A stretch of 64,000 nucleotides of DNA. Origin: Promicromonospora sukumoe 327MFSha3.1 (GTDB lineage Bacteria > Actinomycetota > Actinomycetes > Actinomycetales > Cellulomonadaceae). The DNA is taken from the NCBI RefSeq assembly GCF_000385135.1, contig NZ_ARQM01000016.1, positions 62,001-126,000 on the forward strand. The letters are read 5' to 3'. The position numbers and the translations under genes were made by a program. The notes beneath the pieces were generated by a model. That model ran no database searches, was not told where the DNA came from, and saw nothing but the letters and a program-made list of their open reading frames with translations. This document shows, one piece after another, positions 30,457 through 33,733 of this stretch; positions within the stretch are counted from its first letter, which is position 1, and each line of letters opens with the position of its first letter.

Positions 30457-31386
30457 ATGACTCTCGACCTCCGCATCTTCGTCGAGCCCCAGCAGGGCGC
30501 GACGTACGACGACCAGCTCGCCGTCGCCCAGGCGACCGAACGGCTGGGGTTCAGCGCCTTCTTCCGCTCCGACCACTACCTCGCCATGGGCGACCGGGAC
30601 GGCCTGCCCGGGCCCACCGACTCCTGGATCACGCTGGCCGGCCTGGCCCGCGAGACCTCGACCGTGCGGCTCGGCACGCTCGTCTCCTCGGCGACGTTCC
30701 GGCACCCCGGCGTGCTCGCCATCCAGGTGGCGCAGGTGGACCAGATGTCCGGCGGCCGCGTGGAGCTCGGGCTCGGCACCGGCTGGTTCGCCGCCGAGCA
30801 CGCCGCCTACGGCATCCCGTTCCCCGACAAGCGGTTCGGCATCCTCGAGGAGCAGCTCGCCGTCGTCACCGGCCTGTGGGGCACGCCCGTCGGCGAGACC
30901 TTCTCCTTCTCGGGCGAGCACTACCAGATCACCGACTCGCCCGCGCTGCCCAAGCCCGCGCAGTCGAAGATCCCCGTGCTGGTCGGGGGCGGCGGCCCGC
31001 GCCGCACGCCCGCCCTGGCGGCGCGGTACGGCGACGAGTACAACCAGTCCTTCCCGGAGATCAGCGAGGTCGGCCCCCGGATCAAGGTCATCGAGAAGGC
31101 CCTGTCCGACGCCGGGCGCGACCCCGGTTCGATCGTCCAGTCGGTGGCGCTCGTCGCCGCGGTCGGCACGGACGAGGCCGAGTTCACGCGGCGTGCGGCG
31201 GCGATCGGCCGCGAGCCCGCCGAGCTGCGCGAGCACGGCATCGCCGGCACCGTCACCGAGGTGGTGGACCGCCTCAAGGCCCTGGAGGCCGACGGCGTCC
31301 AGCGCGTCTACCTGCAGGTGCTCGACCTGGCGGACCTCGACCACCTCGACCTGGTCGCGCGCGAGGTGCGCCCGCAGCTCGGCTGA
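30457..31386 (+). CDS. LLM-class flavin/F420-dependent oxidoreductase
   Basis: The 309-aa TIM-barrel protein shows the luciferase-like monooxygenase pattern: LGFSAFFRSDHYLAM, the LGTLVSSATFRHP region, GRVELGLGTGWFAAEH and PVLVGGGGPRRTPALAA. In actinobacteria such enzymes usually use F420. Substrate unknown. It is the second gene of the DsbA-like unit, and a strong hairpin follows (31406-31437). Confidence 0.9.
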   Translation: MTLDLRIFVEPQQGATYDDQLAVAQATERLGFSAFFRSDHYLAMGDRDGLPGPTDSWITLAGLARETSTVRLGTLVSSATFRHPGVLAIQVAQVDQMSGGRVELGLGTGWFAAEHAAYGIPFPDKRFGILEEQLAVVTGLWGTPVGETFSFSGEHYQITDSPALPKPAQSKIPVLVGGGGPRRTPALAARYGDEYNQSFPEISEVGPRIKVIEKALSDAGRDPGSIVQSVALVAAVGTDEAEFTRRAAAIGREPAELREHGIAGTVTEVVDRLKALEADGVQRVYLQVLDLADLDHLDLVAREVRPQLG

Positions 31387-31405: not shown

Positions 31406-31437
31406 CGGGCCGCCCCGCCGTCGTGCGGGGCGGCCCG
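31406..31437 (+). terminator. Terminator after the LLM oxidoreductase gene
   Basis: Perfect 13-bp GC arms (CGGGCCGCCCCGC and GCGGGGCGGCCCG) with a 6-nt loop, followed by TTCGCTTCC. Confidence 0.8.
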
Positions 31438-31516
31438 TTCGCTTCCGCAGGCCGCCGGGGTGAAATTTCCTTAGGGTCTTCCCAGCCGCTCCTCGCGACA
31501 GACCCAGGAGAAGTCC

Positions 31517-32380
31517 ATGCAGAGCATGTCTCGTGTTGCCCGTGCTTCTCTGGCCGCGGCGGTGCTGGCCGCCGGGGCGCTCGCCGCCGGCCCGGCCGCG
31601 GCCTCCGCCGACGACGGCTTCCGGCGCGGCCCGGACCCCACGGAGGCGAGCATCGAGGCGCCGCTGGGCGCGTTCGCCGTCGAGCAGCTCGTGATCCCGC
31701 GCGCCGCCGCCGAGGGGTACGGCGGCGCCACCGTCTACTACCCGGCCGACACGTCCGAGGGGACGTTCGGCGCGGTCGCCGTCGCGCCGGGCTACACGGG
31801 CACGCAGGCGAGCATCGCCTGGCTCGGACCGCGGATCGCCTCGCAAGGCTTCGTCGTCGTGACCATCGACACGAACAGCCCGGGCGACTCGCCCGACCGC
31901 CGCGGCGACCAGCTCCTCGCCGCGCTGGACCAGCTCCGGGACACCGCGGTCGCGGACCGCGTCGACCCCGCGCGGCTGGCCGTGATGGGCCACTCGATGG
32001 GCGGCGGGGGCAGCCTGGAGGCGGCCAAGGACCGCCCGACGCTCCGGGCGGTCGTCCCGCTCACGCCGTGGAGCGTCGACAAGACGTTCCCCGAGGTCGC
32101 GGCGCCGACCCTGATCATCGGCGCCGAGGACGACATCGTCGCCCGGGTCCGCCTGCACGCCGAGCCGATGTACGAGTCGCTCCCGGCGGGCGGCGACAAG
32201 GCCTACCTCGAGCTGCGGCACGCGACGCACGACGCCCCGGTCCTGCCGGACACGACGATCGCCCGGTACGGCATCTCGTGGCTCAAGCTTTACGTGGACG
32301 ACGACGAGCGGTACGCCCGGTTCCTCTGCCCCGCGCCGGAGCCGGACGACGCGATCAGCGAGTACCGCAGCACCTGTTGA
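31517..32380 (+). CDS. Secreted cutinase / PET-hydrolase-like polyesterase
   Basis: The 287-aa protein has a Sec signal peptide (about residues 1-31, ending AAASA) and an alpha/beta-hydrolase body very like actinobacterial cutinases such as TfCut2. The oxyanion and substrate tyrosine is in APGYTGTQASIAWLG (Tyr93), the nucleophile Ser160 in MGHSMGGGG, the substrate-site Trp185 in PLTPWSV, Asp206 in IGAEDDIVA and His238 in ATHDAP. Cys271 and Cys287 match the C-terminal disulfide of the family. It should hydrolyse cutin or other polyesters outside the cell. The residue after the catalytic His is Asp rather than the usual Phe or Ser. The start at 31517 has AGGAGA upstream. Confidence 0.9.
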   Translation: MQSMSRVARASLAAAVLAAGALAAGPAAASADDGFRRGPDPTEASIEAPLGAFAVEQLVIPRAAAEGYGGATVYYPADTSEGTFGAVAVAPGYTGTQASIAWLGPRIASQGFVVVTIDTNSPGDSPDRRGDQLLAALDQLRDTAVADRVDPARLAVMGHSMGGGGSLEAAKDRPTLRAVVPLTPWSVDKTFPEVAAPTLIIGAEDDIVARVRLHAEPMYESLPAGGDKAYLELRHATHDAPVLPDTTIARYGISWLKLYVDDDERYARFLCPAPEPDDAISEYRSTC

Positions 32381-32446: not shown

Positions 32447-33733
32447 ATGCGACTCGGCTGGACGCTGCACGGTGATGGCGCGCGCATCACCCCCGGAGAG
32501 GTGGTCGCCCCGCACGAGCGGCTGAGCTGGCCGCGCACGGTCGGGATCGGCCTGCAGCACATCGTCGCGATGTTCGGCGCCACGTTCCTCGTGCCGACCA
32601 TCACCCAGTTCGACGCGGCGACGACGCTGTTCTTCTCGGCGATCGGCACCATCGGGTTCCTGCTCATCACGGGCAACAAGCTGCCGAGCTACCTGGGGTC
32701 GAGCTTCGCGTTCATCGCGCCGATCCTCGCGGCCACGGCGTCGGCCGGGCAGTCCGCCGCGATCGGCGGCATCCTCGCCACCGGTCTGCTCCTGGCGCTG
32801 GTCGGCGTGATCGTGCACTTCGCCGGGGCGCACTGGATCCAGATCGCCATGCCGCCCGTGGTCACCGGCGTGATCGTGGCGCTCATCGGACTCAACCTGG
32901 CGCCGGTGGCCTGGGGGTCGTGCACCGCCGACGGCTGCACCGGCTTCCAGGCATCGCCCGTCACGGCCGTGATCACCCTCGCCTCGATCATCCTGATCCA
33001 GGTGCTGTTCCGGGGCATCGTCGGCCGCCTGGCGATCCTGCTCGGCGTGGTGATCGGCTACGTCGTCGCCACCCTGCGCGGCGAGGTCGACTTCACCCCG
33101 GTGGCGGAGGCCGACTGGTTCGGCCTCCCGCACTTCACCGCGCCGTCGTTCGACCCGAGCGTGCTCGGCCTGTTCCTCCCGGTCGTGCTGGTGCTCATCG
33201 CCGAGAACGTGGGCCACGTGAAGTCGGTGGCCGCGATGACCGGCCGCGACTACGACAAGCTCACCGGTCGCGCCCTGTTCGCCGACGGCCTCGCGACCAC
33301 GCTGGCCGGCCTCGGCGGCGGCTCCGGCACCACCACGTACGCCGAGAACATCGGCGTCATGGCCGCCTCCCGCGTGTACTCCACGGCGGCCTACTGGGTG
33401 GCCGCGTTCGGCGCGCTCGTGCTCAGCATGTCGCCCAAGTTCGGCGCGCTGATCAACACCGTGCCGCAGGGCGTGCTCGGCGGCGTCACCACCATGCTCT
33501 ACGGGATGATCGGCATCCTCGGCGCCCGGATCTGGGTGCAGGCCAAGGTCGACTTCTCCGACTCGGTGAACCTGACCACGGCGGCCGTGCCGCTGATCAT
33601 CGGCATCGCGAACTTCACGTGGACGGCCGGCGACCTCGAGTTCGGCGGCATCGCGCTGGGCACCGCCGCCGCCCTGGTCATCTACCACGTGATGCGCGCG
33701 ATCGGCCGCTGGCGGGGGACCGCCCAGGGCTGA
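32447..33733 (+). CDS. uraA: NCS2-family uracil/xanthine permease
   Basis: The 428-aa membrane protein with about 14 helices matches the UraA/PyrP uracil-proton symporters: GIGLQHIVAMFGATFLVP, GSSFAFIAP, AENVGHVKSVA and the GGGSGTTTYAENIGVM segment. It imports uracil or a related base for salvage, complementing upp at the left end. No pyrR-type leader was recognised. A copy of the dispersed palindrome follows it. Confidence 0.93.
   Translation: MRLGWTLHGDGARITPGEVVAPHERLSWPRTVGIGLQHIVAMFGATFLVPTITQFDAATTLFFSAIGTIGFLLITGNKLPSYLGSSFAFIAPILAATASAGQSAAIGGILATGLLLALVGVIVHFAGAHWIQIAMPPVVTGVIVALIGLNLAPVAWGSCTADGCTGFQASPVTAVITLASIILIQVLFRGIVGRLAILLGVVIGYVVATLRGEVDFTPVAEADWFGLPHFTAPSFDPSVLGLFLPVVLVLIAENVGHVKSVAAMTGRDYDKLTGRALFADGLATTLAGLGGGSGTTTYAENIGVMAASRVYSTAAYWVAAFGALVLSMSPKFGALINTVPQGVLGGVTTMLYGMIGILGARIWVQAKVDFSDSVNLTTAAVPLIIGIANFTWTAGDLEFGGIALGTAAALVIYHVMRAIGRWRGTAQG

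Follow-up and report, generated by a model that had tools for sequence, protein, structure and literature searches.

The window, meaning the whole stretch of 64,000 nucleotides analysed from the soil bacterium Promicromonospora sukumoe 327MFSha3.1 (genome of 6.25 Mb, 98.99% complete), carries on its forward strand a gene for a putatively secreted hydrolase. The open reading frame starts with ATG and spans exactly positions 31517 to 32380 (287 residues), as the earlier note had read it. The nearest named relative at the locus was Promicromonospora kroppenstedtii (90% identical). The features are listed below, with the evidence for each in brackets.

30457 to 31386, forward strand: upstream neighbour, a luciferase-like (LLM class) oxidoreductase (domain scan, locus comparison)
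31506 to 31513, forward strand: putative ribosome-binding-site-like sequence AGGAGAAG, upstream of the reading frame (by eye)
31517 to 32380, forward strand: PETase-family (PF12740) secreted polyesterase-like hydrolase, Asp239 variant, 287 residues (reading frame, profile, structure model)
31517 to 31609, forward strand: putative Sec-type signal peptide, about residues 1 to 31 (hydrophobic Ala/Leu core, AxA-like end; cleavage site predicted)
31793 to 31795, forward strand: Tyr93, subsite I, equivalent to IsPETase Tyr87 (alignment)
31889 to 31891, forward strand: Ser125, replacing Gln; equivalent to LCC Tyr127 and TfCut2 Gln92 (alignment)
31988 to 32002, forward strand: nucleophile elbow Gly158-His159-Ser160-Met161-Gly162 (alignment)
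32069 to 32071, forward strand: Trp185, subsite I tryptophan (alignment)
32132 to 32134, forward strand: catalytic Asp206 (Asp in 186/186 aligned rows)
32168 to 32170, forward strand: Met218, replacing Phe; equivalent to IsPETase Ile218 and LCC Phe222 (alignment)
32228 to 32230, forward strand: catalytic His238 (His in 186/186 aligned rows)
32231 to 32233, forward strand: Asp239 (GAC), replacing Phe; equivalent to IsPETase Ser238, LCC Phe243, TfCut2 Phe209 and PHL7 Leu210 (alignment; PHL7 equivalence from an excerpt of PMC10076380)
32327 to 32329, forward strand: Cys271, probable C-terminal disulfide (conservation; pairing by family likeness)
32375 to 32377, forward strand: Cys287, probable C-terminal disulfide (conservation; pairing by family likeness)
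32447 to 33733, forward strand: downstream neighbour, xanthine/uracil permease family (domain scan, locus comparison)

The window protein matched Pfam PF12740 ('PETase') with E 1e-102 and 343.5 bits against a gathering cut-off of 28, over positions 3-262 of the 263 in the profile. Its best PDB chains were PET hydrolases and actinobacterial cutinases, down to E 7.9e-104. The AlphaFold2 model (mean pLDDT 91.1; 95-99 per ten-residue block from residue 41) had low confidence at the N-terminus, in the region of the putative signal peptide, from which we infer export of the enzyme. The model predicted an alpha/beta-hydrolase fold with a Ser-His-Asp triad, as expected of PF12740. The closest solved folds were an ancestral PETase mutant (61% identity) and Streptomyces exfoliatus lipase 1jfr (rmsd 0.6), and PHL7 was fourth (rmsd 0.8). 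No match to the classical cutinase family PF01083 was found in the window protein (Pfam, E 0.001) or anywhere in the genome. The phylogenetic check proposed by the earlier note placed the protein inside the PETase/bacterial-cutinase family and not among other lipases, in agreement with Pfam, PDB and structure comparison; a lipase outside the PETase family was rejected by profile, tree and structure. The BHET hydrolase BdeA (NCBIfam NF051441) belongs to the same superfamily (E 3.7e-129), and identity with it was rejected because the score of 430.4 bits was below the curated cut-off of 520.

The ratio dN/dS was 0.21-0.36 in six pairwise comparisons within the group of Asp239 proteins, indicating purifying selection, and was somewhat lower (0.10-0.27; three pairs) among the Promicromonospora copies with Phe at this position. 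These ratios in the Asp group, together with the Pfam and PDB matches, show that the reading frame did not arise by chance; a pseudogene was likewise rejected, as the triad is intact and internal stops are absent. The only two cysteines of the protein, 271 and 287, were both kept in at least 90% of 49 aligned sequences, which agrees with the C-terminal disulfide that had been claimed for it, the pairing being that expected from the family. Residues 36-287 had a pI of 4.63 and a charge of -13.9, versus pI 9.44 for IsPETase and 9.36 for LCC; with 28 of 185 sequences more negative (rank 29), this acidity is not extreme.

Alignment found Tyr93, Ser160 in GHSMGGGG, Trp185, Asp206 and His238 at the residue numbers claimed for them, with Met161 also present. 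All three triad residues were invariant across the 186 aligned rows. In fold, triad, GHSMGGGG motif and Trp185 the protein resembles type I PET hydrolases and actinobacterial cutinases (TfCut2, LCC, Cut190, PHL7, 1jfr). Joo et al. 2018 define type I by His and Phe/Tyr at the positions of IsPETase W159 and S238, without the extended loop or second disulfide (excerpt of PMC5785972). The window protein has His159 before the nucleophile, a single C-terminal pair of cysteines and no loop insertion relative to TfCut2, and it departs from type I in having Asp239 at the Phe/Tyr site, where PHL7 is also known to deviate, having Leu (excerpt of PMC11219463). Type IIb, the IsPETase type (Trp159, Ser/Thr at 238, loop and second disulfide), was rejected: the protein has His159 and Asp239, and lacks both the loop and the second cysteine pair. 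The likeness to IsPETase is limited to two points: in the whole lineage described below the catalytic His is followed by a polar residue that is not aromatic (Ser in 6/10 members), and 3/10 have Ile218.

The claim of the earlier note that all features of the TfCut2 group are kept stood for the triad and the fold, but not for subsite II. TfCut2 Gln92, Phe188, Phe209, Asn212 and Asn215 correspond to Ser125, Met218, Asp239, Val242 and Asp245; the claim is only partly true because conserved cleft positions other than 239 have also changed, at 95, 125, 242 and 245 and, in part, at 218.

The residue after the catalytic His was counted in an alignment of 186 rows (185 distinct), which included the window protein and four references, and in which the copy of the window protein in its own genome (L110) was counted once. 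Matching open reading frames numbered 211, and 30 with an identical core were merged before counting. Position 239 was Phe in 140 of the 185 distinct sequences, Leu in 18, Ser in 11, Gly in 5, Asp in 4, Met in 4, and Tyr, Ile and Asn in 1 each. The Asp that had been noticed there (GAC, 32231-32233) is thus rare (4/185), and the range is wider than the Phe or Ser presumed to be its natural choice. All four Asp sequences were from Promicromonospora: the window protein, G010 (core identical to P. kroppenstedtii L002), G006, and G007 (core identical to Promicromonospora sp. MEB111 L003). Of the 11 rows with Ser, 6 were from Promicromonospora, and the others were IsPETase, Kineococcus xinjiangensis (L014) and three further members of the class (L180, L198, L200). 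Departure from Phe is not unusual in itself, because Ser also occurs in these four other actinobacterial rows and in IsPETase.

A survey of the host family (221 genomes, E 1e-60) located 48 PETase places in 44 genomes, with Asp in 4, Ser in 6, Leu in 1 and Phe in 37; the Asp and Ser places were all in Promicromonospora. Across the class (394 genomes, 78 with a match at E 1e-40), Asp occurred in 0/99 places other than the window. The codons read at the site were TTC (Phe), TCC or TCG (Ser) and GAC (Asp). Two genomes (G299 and G403) each had six PETase-family places, some of them with a residue other than Phe after the catalytic His (e.g. L199, L209, L210, L212).

Among 13 Promicromonospora genomes, the Asp form was present in 4 and the Ser form in 6, two of which (G004 and G012) also had the Phe form; G002 had the Phe form only, and a full-length PETase match was not found in G003 and G005. 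Both neighbours of the window gene were shared by the 7/7 Ser/Asp loci examined, and this pair flanked the gene at 0/3 loci of Phe copies and at 0/1 Cellulomonas loci. By coordinates, the permease gene lay directly downstream in 10/10 Ser/Asp genomes. The oxidoreductase and permease genes were also present in G002 (L269, 8.5 kb) without a PETase gene between them, the site being empty or emptied, and a permease match was not found in G003 and G005 at E 1e-150. A GC-rich hairpin read by eye at 31406-31437 parts the PETase gene from the upstream gene, and the PETase gene may therefore be transcribed alone.

Phylogeny was based on a main tree of 38 rows chosen by the authors, with trait columns removed, and on a quick tree of 92 rows, of which 75 were others. 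The ten Ser/Asp sequences formed one group on a branch of 0.32 (support 100/100 in the main tree, 100 in the quick tree), and the Asp group had a single origin within it (99/98 and 98, respectively). The Ser/Asp group stood beside the Promicromonospora Phe copies (wider group 91/76 and 95, respectively), a grouping with only moderate support. By this tree, Ser is the likelier ancestral state of the lineage, the Ser rows forming a single clade in only 7% of 200 bootstrap trees. A strict order from Phe to Ser to Asp was not shown, because a tree constrained to hold the Ser rows together was not rejected (AU p = 0.518); its log-likelihood was 1.09 higher than that of the free search. Asp239 belongs to a lineage of single origin that is confined to Promicromonospora, occupies a chromosomal site of its own and has altered residues in the cleft.

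The cleft of this lineage was compared with the rest of the family by mapping LCC positions onto the window protein from the subsite I/II table in an excerpt of PMC11219463. The comparison set was 140 of the 171 non-lineage rows (at least 52% identity; 31 dropped) and included the three Phe copies. With the four Asp rows given first and then the six Ser rows, position 125 (LCC Y127) was S S S S S A S S S A, against Gln in 131/140 others; position 218 (LCC F222) was M M M M I F I I F F, against Phe in 124/140; and position 239 (LCC F243) was D D D D S S S S S S, against Phe in 125/140. Position 214 (LCC H218) was His in all others (140/140) and in the lineage except for Tyr in two members. Asn was kept in only 1/10 lineage members at position 242 (LCC N246; 124/140 others) and in 1/10 at position 245 (LCC N249; 115/140 others). 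The window protein has Val242 and Asp245, and retains His214.

Positions were taken as clade-changed when altered in at least 90% of the lineage, and as conserved when kept in at least 80% of the others (cut-off 0.8). This gave 137 conserved positions, of which 13 were clade-changed, and 5 of these were among the 13 cleft positions (hypergeometric P = 0.0029); the remaining 8/13 lay outside the cleft list. The enrichment is only moderate, because P varied with the conservation cut-off (0.024, 0.0057 and 0.16 at 0.6, 0.7 and 0.9, respectively). The three Phe copies together had one change in the 0.8 set, outside the cleft, and one of them had Ser at 242. The P. citrea Ser-type orthologue (L119 / L008) had Phe at 185, where the subsite I Trp is otherwise near-invariant.

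Ile218 occurred in three Promicromonospora enzymes, all with Ser239 and two with Tyr214, and also in L193, L222 and L264. S214 and I218 are called unique to IsPETase among known PET hydrolases in an excerpt of PMC10080609; the aligned sequences show, compatibly with that excerpt, that the IsPETase pair I218/S238 also arises elsewhere in nature. The two enzymes with Tyr214, Ile218 and Ser239 (L116 and L117, from G004 and G012; cores identical to P. iranensis L015 and L007) come near the engineered combination of LCC-A2 and TurboPETase; a Phe-type copy is present in both genomes as well.

We consider it reasonably probable that the gene encodes a secreted carboxylester hydrolase, acting through Ser160, His238 and Asp206, of a lineage with a remodelled cleft, an acidic subsite II and a shifted substrate. 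The lineage would have arisen when an ordinary Phe-type (type I) polyesterase gene was duplicated, duplication being presumed over loss or transfer, and the copy came to lie between the LLM-class oxidoreductase gene and the xanthine/uracil permease gene. Bulky cleft residues would then have given way to smaller or polar ones: at 125 Ser or Ala for Gln, at 239 Ser (Asp in four genomes) for Phe, and at 218, in 7/10 members, Met or Ile for Phe. Cleavage of ester bonds would follow the usual acyl-enzyme mechanism. With an acidic subsite II, preference would most likely shift from hydrophobic aromatic polyesters to shorter, hydroxylated or soluble esters, an argument from charge that draws on one residue and a generally acidic protein sequence. 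The candidate substrates are plant cutin or suberin fragments and glycerides, which is a guess, and PET hydrolysis would be at most a side activity.

That Asp239 alters polyester specificity, as the earlier note proposed, is plausible by analogy, because variants of PHL7 L210 show that the site influences activity (excerpt of PMC10076380). PET hydrolysis is reported to rise with smaller residues at PHL7 L210 and TfCut2 F209 and to fall with Phe in PHL7 (same excerpt). No acidic residue at the PHL7 L210 site is mentioned in that excerpt, and no acidic S238 variant appears among the in silico IsPETase variants in an excerpt of PMC9143596. Searches of the open-access literature for S238D, F243D, F209D, F238D, L210D and S238E gave none on PET hydrolases by title among the matches listed. 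No paper on a Promicromonospora PETase, or on PETase with Cellulomonadaceae, was found there; Promicromonospora with cutinase gave only endophyte work by title, and with polyester none on such an enzyme by title.

The same observations could be read as a competent PET hydrolase, the Ser/Asp lineage having independently reached a widened, flexible cleft like that of LCC-ICCG, TurboPETase and LCC-A2. TurboPETase is LCC H218S/F222I/F243T, and LCC-A2 is Y127G/H218Y/F243I (excerpt of PMC11219463). At the four positions altered in these enzymes, LCC 127, 218, 222 and 243, the lineage also deviates from what is usual in the family (window 125 and 239 in 10/10 members, 218 in 7/10 and 214 in 2/10), and its Tyr214 and Ile218, which two members combine with Ser239, are the very residues introduced. 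The boost from small residues at the PHL7 site points the same way. However, the residues at 125 and 239 differ from the engineered ones, Asp is absent among the variants described in the excerpts, and the window protein itself keeps His214, has Met218 and lacks the introduced disulfide. The Ser-type orthologues are closer to LCC-A2 and TurboPETase than the window protein is. The subsite II Asn corresponding to IsPETase N241, whose Ala variant kept 18% of BHET activity (excerpt of PMC5785972), was lost in 9/10 lineage members, and the acidic core contrasts with the basic IsPETase and LCC.

Terephthalate dioxygenase large subunits belong to the Ring_hydroxyl_A family, PF00848, of which no match was found in the genome. 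MHETase belongs to the tannase/feruloyl-esterase family, and one protein of that family is encoded elsewhere (L228, C10:508330-509583). The four neighbours scanned were the LLM-class oxidoreductase, a mycothiol-dependent nitroreductase-like protein, a TetR regulator and the permease. A PET-catabolic operon was rejected on the identity of these neighbours, the lack of a PF00848 match and the location of the tannase-family protein elsewhere. A natural ester would be a likelier substrate than PET because the N241-equivalent Asn is lost in 9/10 members, PF00848 and PF01083 gave no match in the genome and the protein is acidic. A competent PET hydrolase is unlikely.

An ordinary lipase or cutinase in which residue 239 has drifted, Asp having no effect on specificity, is equally improbable. 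In its favour, other family members have Leu, Gly, Met, Tyr, Ile, Asn or Ser at this site, IsPETase S238A has similar BHET activity (excerpt of PMC5785972), and dN/dS in the Asp group was somewhat above that of the Phe copies; yet Asp was kept in 4/4 of its group, Phe was absent in 10/10 of the lineage, and several cleft sites changed together.

Judged from its sequence, the window protein is a natural, genus-specific variant of the PETase-family esterases with a remodelled cleft, and its activity on PET or cutin is putative. A broader account, which we advance tentatively and regard as somewhat doubtful, is of a duplicated and relocated type I polyesterase, its cleft rebuilt at engineer-targeted positions, giving a natural Phe/Ser/Asp series whose substrate is distinct and whose subsite II may be acid-gated. 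Such gating is not described for PET hydrolases in the excerpts of PMC10080609, PMC10076380, PMC9143596, PMC5785972 and PMC11219463. If this account is true, the Phe, Ser and Asp forms would be a natural series, so far unexplored, for polyester specificity. PET-hydrolase activity is known to respond to the residue that follows the catalytic His (excerpt of PMC10076380), and one genus has Phe, Ser or Asp there, along with changes at other sites favoured in engineering; with 4 Asp, 6 Ser and 3 Phe enzymes, it offers a ready set for comparing cleft effects on natural and synthetic polyesters.
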